Source: Agromyces lapidis (lineage in GTDB: Bacteria; Actinomycetota; Actinomycetes; Actinomycetales; Microbacteriaceae). From it: a stretch of DNA of 64,000 nucleotides. The stretch covers positions 310,001 to 374,000 of the forward strand of contig NZ_WBIQ01000005.1 in the NCBI RefSeq assembly GCF_009749405.1. The letters are read 5' to 3'. This document shows positions 7,670-50,084 of the stretch, in pieces; position 1 is the stretch's first letter; each line of letters starts with the position of its first letter. The notes beneath the pieces were generated by a model. That model ran no database searches and was not told the DNA's origin. It saw only the letters and a list, made by a program, of their open reading frames with translations. A program made the position numbers and the translations under genes.

Positions 7670-8059
7670 ATGGCATTCGACACCAACTTCTGGGATGTCT
7701 TCAGCGGTCTGTTCGGCTTCTTCGTCTTCGTCGCCTATCTGGTGGCGCTCTTCTCGGTCATCGCCGATCTGTTCCGCGACCCGAAGCTCGCCGGTTGGGC
7801 GAAGGCGATCTGGCTGCTGTTCCTGATCTTCGTGCCGTTCATCACGGTGCTCGTGTACCTGATCGCTCGCGGCAGCAGCTTCGCGGCCCGCGAGAACGCC
7901 CGGCGCAGCGCGTATCACGAGTACATCGACGACCACGGCGACGTGTCGGCGTACAACCCGAATGACGAGGTCGCGAGGGCGCAGGGCCTCGGTGGCGACC
8001 CGACGATCAGCGGCGCGCAGTTCGACGAGGTGCAGCGCGACTCGATGCGCGAAGGCTGA
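7670..8059 (+). CDS. Small membrane protein with PLDc_N-type domain
   Basis: A 129-residue protein with two membrane helices at about 12-34 and 46-67; the second carries the WAKAIWLLFLIFVPFITVLVYLIARG pattern typical of the phospholipase-D N-terminal (PLDc_N) domain found alone in many actinobacterial membrane proteins. The remaining 60 residues are a soluble acidic tail ending in a short-helix pattern (ISGAQFDEVQRDSMREG) that resembles SHOCT-like tails. AGGGGGA at 7657-7663 precedes ATG 7670 by 6 bases. No catalytic motif is present; the function is unknown. Confidence 0.82.
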   Translation: MAFDTNFWDVFSGLFGFFVFVAYLVALFSVIADLFRDPKLAGWAKAIWLLFLIFVPFITVLVYLIARGSSFAARENARRSAYHEYIDDHGDVSAYNPNDEVARAQGLGGDPTISGAQFDEVQRDSMREG

Positions 8060-8112: not shown

Positions 8113-8556
8113 ATGGACATCCGCATCGCCGCGTATGGCGTGATCATCCGCGACGAGCACATTCTGCTCGCGCACTGGAACGAGCACGGCCGATCCGGCT
8201 GGACGCTGCCGGGTGGCGGTGTCGAGGGCAGCGAGCACCCGGTCCAGGCGGCGCGGCGCGAGATCGCGGAGGAGACCGGGTACGAGGCATCCATCGATCG
8301 CCTGCTCGGCATCGACACGATGGTGATCCCGGCGTCGAAGCGTCGGACGGGCGCAGCCCCGCTCTACGCGATGCGGGTGATCTACCGTGCGAGCGTCGTC
8401 GGCGGCGAACTGCGCGACGAGGTCGACGGTTCGAGCGATGAGGCGCGGTGGGTGCCGCTCGCGGAAGTCTCGACGCTGCACCGCGTGAGCCTGCTCGACA
8501 TCGCGCTGCGTCTGAACGCGGCGGAGCCGCCGGACGGGGTGCCGCCGACCGCATAG
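8113..8556 (+). CDS. NUDIX hydrolase
   Basis: A 147-residue NUDIX enzyme that would hydrolyse a nucleoside diphosphate linked to another group. The NUDIX box is canonical at residues 35-57: Gly35, Glu41, then REIAEETGY with Arg49, Glu50, Glu53 and Glu54 for metal binding. The fold covers the whole chain, so no extra domain indicates a substrate. ATG 8113 follows GGTGACGGG, a weak ribosome site. It faces the small reverse-strand gene that ends at 8723. Confidence 0.9.
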   Translation: MDIRIAAYGVIIRDEHILLAHWNEHGRSGWTLPGGGVEGSEHPVQAARREIAEETGYEASIDRLLGIDTMVIPASKRRTGAAPLYAMRVIYRASVVGGELRDEVDGSSDEARWVPLAEVSTLHRVSLLDIALRLNAAEPPDGVPPTA

Positions 8557-8722
8557 GGCCGCGACACGCTCGCCCCCGACGTCGAGGCTCCGGCCGCGAT
8601 GGCGGCCGAATCGTCGGCGACGGGGGCGAGGGCGGCGCAGTGCCGCGCGAACGGCGCCGCCGCGAGGGCGACGGCGCCGTCCGGTGCTGGGCTGGTCGTG
8701 ATGGCGTTCATGCGATCACGAC

Positions 8723-8971
8723 TCAGAGGTTGGGGCCGAGGAGGGCGATCCGCTGGAGATCGCCGGCACGGACCCGGTGCGCGAGCGCGGTGTTCTGCTG
8801 GCGCAGGAGCACGGCTTCGTGCGAGACGCGCTCGCTCTGTCGACGGCTCCACGCGATGAGTGCGAGGCCGGCGCGCAGGGCGATCCGCTCGTTGAGTCGG
8901 CGTGCCTGGGCACGCATGGCGATGGCCTGCCCGGAATCGGACTGACCGAGGGCGAGAGAACTGGTGTTCAC
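8723..8971 (-). CDS. Small hypothetical protein, 82 residues
   Basis: Starts at GTG 8971 with a good ribosome site (AAGGAAA, 6 bases upstream on the reverse strand) and ends at TGA 8723. The product, MNTSSLALGQSDSGQAIAMR..., has a probable helical core (RLNERIALRAGLALIAWSRRQSERVSHEAVLLRQQNTALAHRV) with a short hydrophobic patch ALRAGLALIAW. It is Arg-rich. I do not recognise a family. A strong ribosome site and actinobacterial codon use support coding. A promoter-like pair lies upstream at 9394-9423. Confidence 0.6.
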   Translation of the reverse strand: MNTSSLALGQSDSGQAIAMRAQARRLNERIALRAGLALIAWSRRQSERVSHEAVLLRQQNTALAHRVRAGDLQRIALLGPNL

Positions 8972-44599: not shown

Positions 44600-45679
44600 C
44601 TACGAGCCGAGCGGGCGGTGCAGCAGCGCGGCGGCGGTACTGGTGAACTCGTCGAGGATCGCGGCGACGGGGCGCGATTCGCGCAGGAGTCCGACGCCCT
44701 GACCGGCGTCGACCGGAATGAGCGCATGGTCGCCGTCGCGGTTGGCCGCCACGATCGCGGCGCGCAGGGCGACGAGGTCGGCGCCGTCGATCGCGACCGC
44801 CTCAGTGCGCAGCTCGTCGACGCGTTCGAGCCACTCGTCGACCAGGTCGTTGCGGATGACACGCTCGGGGAACCGTTCGGGCCACGGGAGCCCGAGCGCG
44901 GCATCGAGCGCGCTCGTGTTCACGGTGTCGTCGCCGGTCGCGGCGAGCAGCACCTCGATCGCCGCGGGCGGGGTGAGCGTCTCGGTCGAGGCGGAGAGCG
45001 CGGTGCCGATCCAGGCGCCCGCGGCGCCGGCCGCGAGCACGGCCGCGAGGGTGCGGCCCGAGCCGATGCCGCCGGCCGCGAGCACCGCCGGCCGGTCGGG
45101 CGTCGGAGCACCGCCCGTCGTCGTGCCCCCGCCCGGCGTGACCCCCAGCGGCTCGATCGCATCGAGCACGGCGTCGAGGAGTGCGAGCGTGCCGATGCGG
45201 GGATCGCCGTGCCCGCCGCCGTCGGATCCGCGCGCCACGATGACGTCGACGCCGGCGTCGGCCGCGATCAGGGCCTCGGCCGCCGTGTAGACCTGCGTCG
45301 CCGCGAGGGCGCCGATGGCGTGCACGCGGTCGACCCACTCGAAGCGTTCGGCGAAGCTCACCGAGACGAGCGCCGGGCGCGCCTCGAGCGCCACGTCGAG
45401 CAGCGCGGGATCGCGTTCGATGCCCCAGTGCACGAGCCCGATGCCGAAGGGCTCGCCCGCGCGGTCGCGTTCGAGTTCGACGAGTTGCGCGGCGAGCTTC
45501 GCCGCCGACCCCGCACTGCCCATGCCGATCATGCCGAGGGCCCCGGCCCGCGACACCGCGCTCGCGAAGCGGCCGCCCGCGACCCCGCCCATCGGCGCGC
45601 TCACGATCGGGGTCGTGAGACCGAGCGACGCCGACCACGGTGTCGAGAGCGTCGGGGGAGCGGCCGGGTGCCGGCTCAC
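44600..45679 (-). CDS. Nitronate monooxygenase-like flavoprotein
   Basis: A 359-residue FMN-dependent TIM-barrel enzyme of the nitronate monooxygenase/2-nitropropane dioxygenase family. It shows TPIVSAPMGGVAGG at the start, VIVARGSDGGGHGD with the catalytic His, and AAGGIGSGRTLAAVLAAGAAGAWIGTAL (FMN phosphate site). Start GTG 45679 overlaps the flavin reductase stop by 4 bases, so reduced flavin supply and oxygenase are translated together. The true substrate may be an enoyl or nitro compound; I cannot tell which. Confidence 0.87.
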   Translation of the reverse strand: MSRHPAAPPTLSTPWSASLGLTTPIVSAPMGGVAGGRFASAVSRAGALGMIGMGSAGSAAKLAAQLVELERDRAGEPFGIGLVHWGIERDPALLDVALEARPALVSVSFAERFEWVDRVHAIGALAATQVYTAAEALIAADAGVDVIVARGSDGGGHGDPRIGTLALLDAVLDAIEPLGVTPGGGTTTGGAPTPDRPAVLAAGGIGSGRTLAAVLAAGAAGAWIGTALSASTETLTPPAAIEVLLAATGDDTVNTSALDAALGLPWPERFPERVIRNDLVDEWLERVDELRTEAVAIDGADLVALRAAIVAANRDGDHALIPVDAGQGVGLLRESRPVAAILDEFTSTAAALLHRPLGS

Positions 45680-46572
45680 GGCTGCAACTCCTGCCGCGCG
45701 GCCCACTCGAGGAACGCGGGGTCGGCCGAGACGATGCGCGACACCTCTTCGCCGCCGTCGCAGCGGCAGAGGCTCACGATCGCCCCGTCGGCGCCGAGCT
45801 GACGCACGGCCCAGGTGCCGCCGAAGCCCTCCCACCGGTCGAGCTCGTCGAGCGGGGAGGCGGGCAAGGCGGGCGACGCGGGCCAGGCGGAAGCGGGCGA
45901 TGCGGAATCCGGAGCGGATGCCGCATCCGGCACCGGCTCGCGCGTGTCGGGCGGGCCCGGCGCGATGGGCGACTTGCGGGTCCAGCCGACGTGCTCGCCG
46001 CGGTCGAAGAAGTGGCGGAAGCTGTAGATCAGCGGGTGCCAGGCGTGCGGGTCGATGTGGTTCGTGCCGGGCACGACGAGTTCGGGCAGCGCATGCACGC
46101 GCACCACCTCGACCTCGACCATGAAGTAGCCGGGATCGACGCCGGCGGTGGTGCGCCGCACCTCGCCCTCGAACTGCAGCGGTGCCTCGCGCACGCGCGG
46201 AGGGGACACCAGCTCCGAGGGTTTCGTCGTGAATCCGGCGAGTTCGAACTTGCGCGGTTCGAAACGATACTGCCCGGCCTTCGCCTCGGGCACCGGATCG
46301 CGGCCGGTCGCCGCCGAGAGCCGCTCGACCCCGCGCCACTGCGTCGCGGCCGGGAAGTTCACCGTCAGCTGAGGACGTTCGGCGAGGTTCGCCGCCGTCT
46401 GCCCGTCGGCCTCGAGCCCGAGCACGAGCATGCGGCCGAGCGCCCAGTGCGAGGAGGCGGGGGCGAGGTTCGGCGTGCCGTCGGGGTTCTCGGTGACGAC
46501 GAGGTAGACCGGCGTGCCGACGTAGAGGACGCTCGGCTCGATCACGAGGTGGTCGGAGGTCTCGGCATCCAT
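45676..46572 (-). CDS. Flavin reductase-like FMN-binding protein
   Basis: A 298-residue flavin reductase-domain protein. The split-barrel FMN-binding part spans about 12-165, with NLAPASSHWALGRMLVLGLEADGQTAANLAERPQLTVNFP. A 25-residue Ala/Ser/Pro/Asp insert (about 214-240) and a C-terminal region WEGFGGTWAVRQLGADGAIVSLCRC follow. It probably supplies reduced flavin or works with the coupled nitronate-monooxygenase-like enzyme. Confidence 0.85.
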   Translation of the reverse strand: MDAETSDHLVIEPSVLYVGTPVYLVVTENPDGTPNLAPASSHWALGRMLVLGLEADGQTAANLAERPQLTVNFPAATQWRGVERLSAATGRDPVPEAKAGQYRFEPRKFELAGFTTKPSELVSPPRVREAPLQFEGEVRRTTAGVDPGYFMVEVEVVRVHALPELVVPGTNHIDPHAWHPLIYSFRHFFDRGEHVGWTRKSPIAPGPPDTREPVPDAASAPDSASPASAWPASPALPASPLDELDRWEGFGGTWAVRQLGADGAIVSLCRCDGGEEVSRIVSADPAFLEWAARQELQP

Positions 46573-46732: not shown

Positions 46733-47245
46733 GTGACCTCGAACACCCCGACCCGCGCCCTGCCCAACCTGCCGCTCATCGGCACCTGGGTCGCCGCCCT
46801 CGCACTGCTCGGCGTCGGCCTCTGGCTGCTCAACACGTCGAACGCGTCGCAGGTCGAGCTGTACACGTCGCAGTCGCAGGACTACGCGGCCTACCTCGGC
46901 GCCCAGACCGGCACGACCGTCGGCGGCCTGCTGATCGCGGTCGGCGCGCTCGCCATCGTCATCGCCGCGGCGACGCAGGCGGTCGCCTGGTCGATCGCGC
47001 GCCGCGCATCGCAGGTGGAGGCCGCGGCGCCGGTCGAGTTCGACGAGGTCGACGAGTTCGAGGTCGAATTCGCCGAGGCCCCGGTCGCCACGGCCGAAGC
47101 TGCGCCCGAGGCGCCCGAGGCGCCCGAGGCGCCCGAGGCGCCCGCCGCCGAGCCGGTCGCGCCCGCCGCCGAGCAGGTCGCGCCCGCAGAGCCCGCCGCC
47201 GAGCAGGTCGAGGCCGACGCACCCGAGCAGGCCGACAAGAAGTAA
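46733..47245 (+). CDS. Two-helix membrane protein with Ala-Pro-Glu repeats
   Basis: A 170-residue protein with helices at about 12-34 and 61-86 and a long acidic cytoplasmic tail rich in Ala, Pro and Glu: the APE triplet repeats from residue 124, then APAEQ-type repeats and a Lys-Lys end. Start GTG 46733 follows GAAGGA at 6-base spacing. Related proteins occur in Microbacterium, where an old 'dinucleotide-utilizing' label has no sequence support. No function can be assigned. Confidence 0.75.
   Translation: MTSNTPTRALPNLPLIGTWVAALALLGVGLWLLNTSNASQVELYTSQSQDYAAYLGAQTGTTVGGLLIAVGALAIVIAAATQAVAWSIARRASQVEAAAPVEFDEVDEFEVEFAEAPVATAEAAPEAPEAPEAPEAPAAEPVAPAAEQVAPAEPAAEQVEADAPEQADKK
47102..47137 (+). 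repeat. Four tandem copies of GCGCCCGAG
   Basis: The 9-base unit GCGCCCGAG occurs four times in a row at 47102-47137, each copy encoding the residues EAP in register. Unit number is likely to vary between strains through slipped replication, without a frameshift. Confidence 0.85.
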
Positions 47246-47260
47246 CCCGCAGAACAGGTG

Positions 47261-47713
47261 TCAGCCGGCCGGGCGCTCGATCGAGCGCCCGGCCGCTGCG
47301 TTCCCGGCTCCTGTCGCGCTCTCGAGGCCCCACTCGACGAGCGGCTGCAGCAGCTCGATGAGCCTGAGCCCCGCCGCGCTCGGCGTGTAGGCGATCGTCA
47401 CCGGCGTCGTCGCCTTCACGTGCCGCTCGATCATGCCCTCGGCCTCGAGTTCGCGCAGCCTGGCCGCGAGCAGGCGATCGGAGATGCCCGTCACCGTGGC
47501 CCGGTACTCCGAGAACCGTCGGGCGCCGCGGACGCCCGCGAGCAGGATCGCGCCGTTCCACTTGCGGCCGGCGAACTCGATCGTCGTCTGGAATCGTCGG
47601 CACGCCTCGTCGTCGATGTGCCCGAGCCCCTCGAGTCGCGCGCGATGCGCGGCGAGATCGTCGCTGCCCGGGGCGGGCGCGGGAATGATCGGCTGCTCAA
47701 TCTCGCTTACCAC
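47261..47713 (-). CDS. HxlR-type transcriptional regulator
   Basis: A 150-residue regulator with the HxlR winged helix at about 30-110: KWNGAILLAGVRGARRFSEYRATVTGISDRLLAARLRELEAEGMIERHV. GTG 47713 is chosen because upstream frame lacks a ribosome site; the start codon itself lies inside a palindrome at 47705-47721. It is divergent from the fused flavin/FAD oxidoreductase gene, its likely target. Confidence 0.86.
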   Translation of the reverse strand: MVSEIEQPIIPAPAPGSDDLAAHRARLEGLGHIDDEACRRFQTTIEFAGRKWNGAILLAGVRGARRFSEYRATVTGISDRLLAARLRELEAEGMIERHVKATTPVTIAYTPSAAGLRLIELLQPLVEWGLESATGAGNAAAGRSIERPAG

Positions 47714-47728
47714 AAGTAAGCAGCTTAC
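47705..47728. promoter_or_regulatory. HxlR operator with three half-sites
   Basis: GCTTAC (47705-47710) and GTAAGC (47716-47721) form a perfect palindrome with 5 bases between, and a third GCTTAC lies at 47723-47728. The site covers the regulator's own start codon and lies 65 bases before the divergent oxidoreductase gene. Confidence 0.7.
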
Positions 47729-47792
47729 CCGAGAGGCGCGGATGAGGCATCCGTGCAGCATGCTGGGGGAGACGTGGAAAGGGACCCGCACG

Positions 47793-50084
47793 ATGCACTA
47801 CGGCCATGAACTCGAGTTCGGCACCTTCATCACCCCGACGAACGACCCGCCGCAGGCGCCGGTGCGCCTCGCCGAGCTCAGCGAGGCCGCAGGCTACGAC
47901 CTGGTCACCTTCCAGGACCACCCGTACCAGCCGCGCTTCCACGACACGCAGACGCTCATGACGTGGGTCGCCGCACGCACCGAACGCATCCGCATCGCGG
48001 CGAACGTCGCGAACGTGCCGCTGCGCCCGCCCGCCGTGCTCGCCCGCTCGGCGGCGAGCATCGACCTGCTCTCGGACGGGCGCTTCGAACTCGCGCTCGG
48101 CGCCGGCGGCTTCTGGGACGCGATCGAGGCGATGGGCGGCCGCCGACTCACGCCCGGGCAGGCGGTCGACGCGCTCTCCGAGGCGATCGACGTGATCCGC
48201 GGCGTGTGGGATCAGGGCGAGCGCGCCCGGTTCCAGCTCGACGGCGACTACTACCGCATCGACGGCGCCAAGCGCGGACCGGCTCCGGCGCACAACATCC
48301 CCATCTGGATCGGCGCGTTGAAGCCCCGCATGCTCCGCCTCATCGGCCGTAAGGGCGACGGCTGGCTGCCCTCGCTCGCCTACCTGCAACCCGGCGACCT
48401 CGCCCGTGCGAACGCGACGATCGACGAGGCGGCCACCGCCGCCGGGCGCGACCCGCGCGAGATCCGCCGCCTGCTGAACGTCGGCGGCCGCTTCTCAGCG
48501 GGCGGTCGCGGCGGCATGCTCGACGGACCCGCCGAGCAGTGGGTCGAGCAGCTGCTGCCGTACGTCGTCGACGACGGCGTCAGCACCTTCATCCTCGCGA
48601 GCGACGACCCCGGCACCATCCGTCACTTCGCCGACGAGGTCGCGCCAGGCCTCCGCGAGGCGGCCGCACGCGAGCTGGGGGCGAGCGCCGGCACGGCATC
48701 GGATGCCTCGGGGTCGACCTCGCTCGCCGGCGCCGCGCCCGGTCGCAGCACCGCGGTGCGGGCCAAGCGCCGCGACGGCATCGATTACGACGCACTGCCC
48801 GCCCGGCTCGCCGCCCGGGCGATCGAGCCGGGCGACGCGGGCTACGCCCGGGTGAAGTCGACCTATCTCCGGGGCGGCGCCCCCGGTCTCGTGCTGCAGC
48901 CGACCACCGCGACCGAGGTCGCCGACGCCGTGCGCTTCGCGGCGCGGCACCCCGAGGTGCCGTTCGGCGTGCGCAGCGGCGGCCACGGCATCAGCGGCCG
49001 CTCGACGAACGACGGCGGCATCGTCGTCGACCTCTCGAAGATGCACGGCATGAGCGTGCTCGACGAGGCGAGCCGGCTCGTGCGCATCGAGGCCGGTGCG
49101 CGCTGGAAGGACGTCGCCGCGTTCCTCGCCCCGCACGGCTGGGCGCTCAGCTCGGGCGACTACGGCGGCGTCGGCGTCGGCGGCCTCGCGACGGCGGGCG
49201 GCATCGGCTACCTCGCCCGCGAGCACGGACTCACCATCGACCACCTGCGGGCCGCCGAGCTCGTGCTGGCCGACGGTCGGGTCGTGCGGGCCGATGCCAC
49301 GGAGCATCCCGAACTCTTCTGGGCCGTGCGGGGGGCCGGTGCGAGCTTCGGCATCGTGACCGCGTTCGAGTTCGAGGTCGGCTTCGCGCAGCTCGCGTTC
49401 GATGCGAGCGACCGCGCCGGGTTTCTCGAGGCGTGGGGCAGGTGGGTGGTCGAGTCGCCGCGCGACGTGACGAGCTTCCTCATCATGGGCGGCACCCGGC
49501 CCGGGCAGCCGCCCGTCGCGAACGTCATGACGATGATCGACTCCGACGACCCCGACACCGTGCTCGAACGCCTGCAGCCGCTCGCCGACGCCGCCCCGCT
49601 CATCGGGCAGGACGTGCGCCTCTCCACCTACGACGCCGTGATGGCGAACGCGGGCGACGAGAGCCACGGCGCCGAGGGCGAGCCGACCTCGCGCTCCGGC
49701 CTCATCGGCCGGGTCACCCCCGAGTTCGCGCGTGCTGCGGCCCGGTACCTCGACGAGGGGGCGAGCTACTTCTTCCAGCTGCGCGCGGTCGGCGGGGCCG
49801 TGCACGACGTGCCCGCCGACGCGACCGCGTTCGCGCACCGGTCGGCCGAGTTCTCGGTCGTCGCGTTCGGCTCGTCGAGCATGCGCACGAGCGAGCGGTG
49901 GGACGAGCTCATCGCCCCGCACACCGCGGGCGCCTACCTCAGCTTCGAGACGATGCAGGGCGAGCGGGCCGTCGCGGCGGCGTTCCCGCCGGCGACGCTC
50001 GAGCGCCTGCGGGCGCTCAAGGCCGAGGTCGACCCGGGCAACCTGTTCCGCGACAACGCGAACCTCGGGGCGGCGGCCGGGTAG
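47793..50084 (+). CDS. Fused LLM-class flavin oxidoreductase and BBE-type FAD oxidase
   Basis: A 763-residue two-domain enzyme. Residues 1-300 are a luciferase-like monooxygenase (LLM) domain: ELEFGTFITPTNDPPQAPVRLAELSEAAGYDLVTFQDHPYQPRF, with DGRFELALGAGG and PIWIGALKPRMLRLIGRKGDGW, binding FMN or F420. A flexible linker (about 303-340) leads to an FAD-linked oxidase (341-763) of the berberine-bridge type with RSGGHGISGRS, where His398 could hold FAD covalently, and the C-terminal BBE tail DPGNLFRDNANL. ATG 47793 follows GAAAGGGA. The two domains normally occur on separate proteins. Confidence 0.88.
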   Translation: MHYGHELEFGTFITPTNDPPQAPVRLAELSEAAGYDLVTFQDHPYQPRFHDTQTLMTWVAARTERIRIAANVANVPLRPPAVLARSAASIDLLSDGRFELALGAGGFWDAIEAMGGRRLTPGQAVDALSEAIDVIRGVWDQGERARFQLDGDYYRIDGAKRGPAPAHNIPIWIGALKPRMLRLIGRKGDGWLPSLAYLQPGDLARANATIDEAATAAGRDPREIRRLLNVGGRFSAGGRGGMLDGPAEQWVEQLLPYVVDDGVSTFILASDDPGTIRHFADEVAPGLREAAARELGASAGTASDASGSTSLAGAAPGRSTAVRAKRRDGIDYDALPARLAARAIEPGDAGYARVKSTYLRGGAPGLVLQPTTATEVADAVRFAARHPEVPFGVRSGGHGISGRSTNDGGIVVDLSKMHGMSVLDEASRLVRIEAGARWKDVAAFLAPHGWALSSGDYGGVGVGGLATAGGIGYLAREHGLTIDHLRAAELVLADGRVVRADATEHPELFWAVRGAGASFGIVTAFEFEVGFAQLAFDASDRAGFLEAWGRWVVESPRDVTSFLIMGGTRPGQPPVANVMTMIDSDDPDTVLERLQPLADAAPLIGQDVRLSTYDAVMANAGDESHGAEGEPTSRSGLIGRVTPEFARAAARYLDEGASYFFQLRAVGGAVHDVPADATAFAHRSAEFSVVAFGSSSMRTSERWDELIAPHTAGAYLSFETMQGERAVAAAFPPATLERLRALKAEVDPGNLFRDNANLGAAAG

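Follow-up and report, generated by a model that had tools for sequence, protein, structure and literature searches.

Why should a luciferase-like hydride transferase (LLM) domain and a flavin adenine dinucleotide (FAD)-dependent oxidase be carried on a single chain, beside a divergently transcribed HxlR-type regulator? The question is raised by a gene in a 64,000-nt stretch of contig NZ_WBIQ01000005.1 of the soil bacterium Agromyces lapidis (G000, hereafter the own genome); this whole stretch, to whose numbering all positions refer, is called the window. The reading that we prefer, with a probability of about 0.47, is that the gene encodes an inducible stand-alone enzyme coupling a hydride step dependent on coenzyme F420 with an O2-dependent FAD oxidation. 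The parts of the gene are as follows:

47793..50084, forward strand: the fusion gene, 763 aa, LLM domain, linker and FAD oxidase of berberine-bridge-enzyme (BBE) type (open frame, Pfam, relatives)
47793..48692, forward strand: LLM domain, residues 1-300, with the D42-H43 motif (PF00296; best PDB matches the F420-dependent Mer and FGD)
48693..48791, forward strand: linker, about residues 301-333 (alignment A1)
48792..50081, forward strand: FAD oxidase domain, residues 334-763, FAD_binding_4 plus BBE (Pfam; EncM aligned over 334-759)
48984..48986, forward strand: codon of His398, the predicted 8-alpha covalent FAD attachment (GGH motif; invariant in 64 fusions)

The open reading frame of 763 codons runs from the ATG at 47793 to the TAG at 50084 with no internal stops; the purine-rich sequence GGAAAGGGA lies ahead of it, at 47776-47784. 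Its product exceeds the Pfam cut-offs for Bac_luciferase (PF00296; residues 8-228, 168 bits against 27.9), FAD_binding_4 (residues 365-500, 112.1 bits against 26.4) and BBE (residues 718-757, 22.6 bits against 20.6). The best solved relative of the C-terminal part is EncM, with similarity over residues 334-759, and the linker is therefore placed at about residues 301-333, near the 37 residues between domains 1-300 and 341-763 proposed in a first-pass annotation of the locus. Linker length and sequence vary widely among the relatives in alignment A1, one of which (L025) carries a repeat-rich insert. The attachment residue named in that annotation, His398, is the histidine of the sole GGH motif in the fusion and is unchanged in all 64 aligned fusions; the residue is present and is expected to hold FAD covalently, the bond itself being predicted.

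The same annotation considered such a fusion unusual, which it is not: the fusion is common and old. When GTDB genomes were scanned with alignment A1, 580 pattern hits were returned, 539 of which encode a relative, and the best 80 were kept as named loci. LLM domain and FAD oxidase share one open frame in 80/80 of these, a set biased by the retention of the best matches to the whole query; together with the Pfam profiles this bears out the annotated fusion, and an assembly artefact or chance frame was rejected. The kept relatives carry the tree labels Actinomycetota, Chloroflexota and Thermomicrobiota, and the nearest named fusion, that of Agromyces italicus, stands at 92% over the protein. 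An even sample of the class (394 genomes) contains 73 genomes with a match at E <= 1e-100. In 48 of these, one of them the own genome, a single match begins at or before query residue 30 and extends at least to residue 750, which we count as a full-length fusion match. Of the 60 genomes made up of the own genome and 59 relatives, 27 have the fusion; two are frame-shifted (L022, L024) and two LLM-decayed (L026, L027). Four plasmid records match, and the one that covers most of the query is chromosome-sized (11.85 million bases). No description of the fusion was found, as far as our searches of open-licence papers reach, so that within this literature the architecture is a widespread, undescribed variation on known kinds; a term search of the main text of an F420 review (PMC8498797) returned neither 'fused' nor 'berberine' nor 'salvage'. 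The first-pass annotation had named beforehand, as the outcome that would speak against it, a routine and widespread fusion with a known substrate: the fusion proved widespread, and no known substrate was found.

Over residues 334-759 the C-terminal domain falls into one FAD oxidase family with EncM of enterocin biosynthesis, mitomycin radical oxidase and 6-hydroxy-D-nicotine oxidase, and it shares their GGH histidine; unlike the fusion, these enzymes are chains without an LLM domain. According to PMC7662398, EncM binds FAD via His78 and its T139V variant showed oxidase activity. EncM residues T139 and H138 align with V460 and G459 of the fusion. The valine speaks for an oxidase, and because both residues differ, flavin-N5-oxide chemistry is not expected and an EncM-type flavin-N5-oxide oxygenase was rejected. 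No conserved biosynthetic neighbours were seen around the fusion, and the score against the BagK/FevA1 equivalogs (157 bits) is below the NCBIfam cut-off of 800. The position of the cysteine that makes the second FAD link in bicovalent enzymes is presumably Tyr457 here (Tyr, Ser or Phe in alignment A1), with no Cys; a bicovalent BBE enzyme was set aside on this presumed position rather than on a residue-by-residue alignment with a bicovalent enzyme.

Upstream of the fusion lie a divergent regulator gene and an operator:

47261..47713, reverse strand: HxlR (DUF24) regulator, divergent, with its GTG start within the operator (Pfam; nearest solved structure YodB)
47706..47728, no strand: three-half-site operator CTTAC-N5-GTAAG-N3-CTTAC (sole site in the own genome; co-segregates with divergent HxlR)
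47600..47602, reverse strand: single-Cys codon of HxlR, aligned with the first YodB Cys (alignment to 5hs7)

The regulator matches PF01638 with 70.1 bits (cut-off 20.8), and the GTG read as its start, at 47713, falls inside the three-half-site operator, just as the first-pass annotation had it. The operator is without mismatch at 47706-47728, and the own genome has no other site at one mismatch or fewer (reversed control 0). At the same threshold nine of 40 genomes have the operator, one site each, all nine just upstream of a fusion; the reversed operator gave three matches in these 40 genomes, one each in three of them. We thinned 132 fused locus records to 109 distinct upstream stretches, took fixed 260-base regions and scored the operator over 15 positions. 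A divergent HxlR gene lies within 400 bases in 53 of the 109 stretches, and all 53 have both the Cys and the operator at three or fewer of 15 mismatches. Three more loci (L022, L024 and L088) have the divergent HxlR gene farther off, with the Cys kept and operators having 1, 2 and 3 mismatches, respectively, which brings operator and Cys to 56/56 each among loci with a divergent HxlR. The operator is present in 0/53 of the other stretches, where the best match has five mismatches; one of these, L127, does have an HxlR-like gene, which lies on the same strand and lacks the Cys. In letter-shuffled upstream DNA, 0.09% obtain an operator match at three or fewer mismatches.

Among PDB entries the regulator matches YodB best, and its sole Cys aligns with the first Cys of YodB. 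According to PMC8063818, this first Cys of YodB forms adducts with quinones, and YodB has a second Cys, Cys101; the present regulator has one Cys only. The regulator shares with HxlR proteins of the YodB/QsrR type the DUF24 fold, as judged by sequence, and the N-terminal Cys, and differs from them in the three half-sites of its operator; it scores below both NCBIfam cut-offs for RrpB (NF047364, 40.1 of 175) and RrpA (NF047367, 31.3 of 185). By similarity, it is probably a thiol sensor of the YodB type, responsive to quinones or other electrophiles.

The two modules also occur unfused under the same operator. In genome G131, besides a fusion under HxlR (L049, L180), an operator without mismatch stands at another place in front of a free-standing LLM gene (40% identity), the TGA of which overlaps the ATG (ATGA) of a likewise free-standing FAD-oxidase gene (46%). 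An overlapping pair of this kind is found in G115 too (LLM 38.7% identity; oxidase 61.5% over the first 182 residues fetched), with an operator-type site at two mismatches. In G188 an LLM gene follows an operator-type site, and the approximately 550 bases fetched beyond this gene contain no oxidase match. Sites at two or fewer mismatches were found in 13 of 16 genomes searched, and G202 has an operator-type site without an LLM or oxidase match near. As the reversed control also yields between 0 and 2 sites per genome, the weaker sites carry little weight by themselves; it is their position before LLM genes that makes them telling. A further two-mismatch site, L169 (G198:C10:19353-19375), lies where a relative has the unfused pair; neither gene was present in the 1.5 kb fetched beyond it.

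Loss of the fused LLM domain was followed in 123 distinct oxidase frames, classified by the DHP motif and by the presence of a second LLM gene. The motif is kept with no second LLM detected in 100 frames (including L122, where a cut-off second LLM begins after) and kept beside a second LLM gene in 10; it is lost in frame, next to an intact second LLM gene, in 11 (L026, L027 and L151-L159). In the last two frames, L022 and L024, the LLM domain is interrupted by a frameshift, and what looked like a second LLM in L022 is the shifted part of its own domain. Of the 123 oxidase frames, 0 thus show in-frame decay with no LLM gene adjacent. Among the 11 decayed domains, L159 still has 48% identity, and at the other extreme L151-L153 and L027 are remnants with almost no match; 11/123 is not a rate, because L151-L162 were chosen for split or neighbouring matches in the class sample. 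A Fisher test of decay against the presence of a second LLM gene gives 2e-10 (table 11/0/10/102), a value that overstates the link, because decay amounts to only about three changes on the oxidase tree, and the supported branches yield just two independent pairs, not enough for a sign test.

The ratio of nonsynonymous to synonymous substitution rates (dN/dS) is 0.29, 0.24 and 0.81 for the decayed LLM domains of the pairs L154/L155, L156/L157 and L151/L027, against 0.11, 0.13 and 0.34 for the oxidase domains of the same pairs. In intact pairs the LLM and oxidase values are 0.16/0.23 (window/L033), 0.22/0.35 (window/L037) and 0.24/0.20 (L086/L087). Since its ratio lies above that of its own oxidase, the decayed domain is relaxed relative to the oxidase; two of the three decayed pairs still look constrained, and L151/L027 nearly not.

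A fusion kept merely for co-expression or stability, its domains catalysing different reactions with no shared chemistry, would be in keeping with the long, variable linker and with the decay of the fused LLM domain in some lineages. We regard this as quite improbable, given that the unfused pair is kept under the same operator and that in-frame decay is seen solely beside an adjacent second LLM gene (11/11). That the modules are found fused, overlapping or, upon decay, with a second LLM gene argues for one working unit. The functional coupling that the first-pass annotation read into the union of the domains is to this extent upheld as a coupling in evolution, visible in the unfused pair and in decay beside a second LLM; the chemistry of that coupling is our proposal. 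The 11 loci in which a decayed LLM domain is accompanied by an intact LLM protein may be likened to bacterial luciferase LuxAB, from which they differ in that the decayed partner bears an FAD oxidase; the heterodimer is putative.

The mechanism that we infer comprises F420, covalent FAD, oxidase activity, an electrophile inducer, a shared substrate and coupling. The N-terminal domain would be an F420-type luciferase-like hydride transferase, and the C-terminal domain an FAD oxidase of the branch of EncM, mitomycin radical oxidase and 6-hydroxynicotine oxidase, holding FAD via His398 alone and using oxygen as electron acceptor. The two centres would share a compound, on which the first carries out an F420-dependent hydride transfer and the second an O2-dependent dehydrogenation. 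HxlR, bound to the three-half-site operator, would repress both genes until an electrophile (a quinone, an aldehyde or similar) alkylates or oxidises its sole Cys and releases it; the enzyme would therefore be made when the compound, or a similar thiol attacker, is present. The regulator points to thiol-reactive compounds. A small substrate shared by the F420 hydride step and the O2-dependent FAD step is the simplest reading, and an F420H2-FAD-O2 relay is a bolder one. Stated in its strongest form, with centres obligately coupled (by an F420H2->FAD->O2 relay or a channelled four-electron conversion) and a dead fused LLM scaffold recruiting an active LLM into a LuxAB-like heterodimer, the proposal seems unlikely.

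Internal recycling would use the same two centres otherwise: the LLM domain would oxidise the substrate with F420 and the FAD domain would reoxidise F420H2 with O2, yielding a self-sufficient dehydrogenase. F420H2 needs an oxidant in aerobes, and the modules are held together both as a fusion and as overlapping genes, two points in favour of this scheme; FAD oxidases of the EncM branch, on the other hand, act on small organic substrates, no F420H2 docking site was identified on the FAD domain, where none could be modelled, and we hold recycling to be very unlikely. The dehydrogenase step that it calls for would agree with a review in which F420 LLM enzymes act as dehydrogenases or reductases (PMC8498797).

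F420-dependent LLM enzymes are numerous and mostly unassigned, and the conserved fusion fixes which oxidase partners which of them. As the fusion stands under a dedicated sensor, the inducer of the regulator would offer a direct route to the substrate. The series of decayed domains, for its part, is a natural test of whether LLM domains become structural partners.

Besides the small number of decay events, several results weigh against an inducible enzyme coupling F420 and FAD chemistry on one substrate. HxlR is not universal, being found in 41/80 named loci, about half, while a divergent MarR gene is found in 11/80 and neither regulator in 28/80. The dedicated HxlR control suggested earlier is supported, and so, by similarity, is the sensor type (quinone or electrophile), through the YodB match and the invariant Cys. 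Without thinning, a divergent MarR gene is present in 20/132 locus records; Pfam confirmed MarR for the three MarR queries, and in L055 a TetR gene lies upstream of the fusion. The neighbours point to no substrate. On the other side, it speaks for the stand-alone enzyme that no conserved pathway neighbours occur among the 28 neighbour clusters listed, where HxlR is commonest (37/75 loci, median distance 74 bases; others at most 16); a biosynthetic cluster was rejected for want of such neighbours. In the Agromyces loci L022 (about 8000-8050) and L024 (about 6680), the LLM domain is frame-shifted with no second LLM present; these genomes are single contigs, and the frameshifts may be sequencing errors or a real, recent loss.

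The remaining contrary results concern the cofactor. By profile cut-offs, cofG and cofH are not recognisable in the own genome, and within the class sample 19/48 genomes with the fusion, among them the own one, lack a cofG match, so that F420 would there depend on imported Fo or on a route that escapes recognition. In G016, one of the Agromyces genomes that carry the fusion, no match to cofD was found. The gaps in the own genome and in G016 would suit an LLM domain that uses flavin mononucleotide (FMN), as an ordinary flavin-dependent monooxygenase the product of which is then oxidised by the FAD domain, and so would the flavin-reductase-like gene at 45676-46572. That gene is near only a few Agromyces fusions, however, and the closest solved LLM relatives are F420 enzymes: the ten best PDB matches of the domain comprise six named F420-dependent, three methylene-tetrahydromethanopterin reductases, which are F420 enzymes too, and one unassigned luciferase-family protein, and the first FMNH2 enzyme comes later, at 4.9e-11. 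Mer, FGD and hydroxymycolic acid dehydrogenase, F420 enzymes that match residues 8-230 of the fusion and have the D-H motif in common with it, are stand-alone, unlike the fused LLM domain. The cut-offs of the NCBIfam F420 LLM subfamilies (TIGR03619, TIGR03560 and others) are not reached, the best score being 126.8 of 166.9 for TIGR03619 among 25 families listed of 40 matched.

The distribution of F420 genes also tells against FMN. cofD is present in 48/48 fusion genomes against 321/394 of the class sample (hypergeometric 2.6e-5, kinship not corrected), and all 73 genomes with a match at E <= 1e-100 are in the cofD list; as a cross-check, a list of the genomes without cofD, which covers 72 of these 73 absentees, contains no matched genome. 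Within the own family in the class sample, 11/11 matched genomes have cofD against 5/10 unmatched, and among the own genome and its 59 relatives cofD is over cut-off in 26/27 with the fusion against 20/33 without it (Fisher 0.0015, kinship not corrected). In the own genome cofD and cofE both exceed their cut-offs, and the npdG-like matches stay below theirs. The first-pass annotation had left FMN or F420 open for this domain; F420 is favoured here by similarity and by cofD, with the gaps in the own genome and G016 standing against it, and the FMN enzyme we find doubtful.

Late without early F420 genes are a feature of the genus sample: of the own genome and G001-G036, cofD is over cut-off in 34/37, cofG in 2/37 and cofH in 0/37 (two strong matches lie under cut-off), which suggests imported Fo or an unknown route. 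The class sample gives a similar picture for its matched g67 genomes, of which 11/11 appear in the cofD list and 0/11 in the cofG list. Such genomes raise the separate question of imported Fo. The fusion of G016 (L025) has an altered start, an enlarged repeat-rich linker and no HxlR found beside it, and is perhaps on its way to loss.

Two further genes of the window lie on the far side of HxlR:

45676..46572, reverse strand: flavin-reductase-like gene (PF01613)
46733..47245, forward strand: small protein whose tail is an EAPEAP repeat (sole match Tetraspanin, under cut-off)

In another genome, at L038, where the HxlR gene was not detected, the neighbouring PfkB gene (8289-8768) matches piecewise in two frames.

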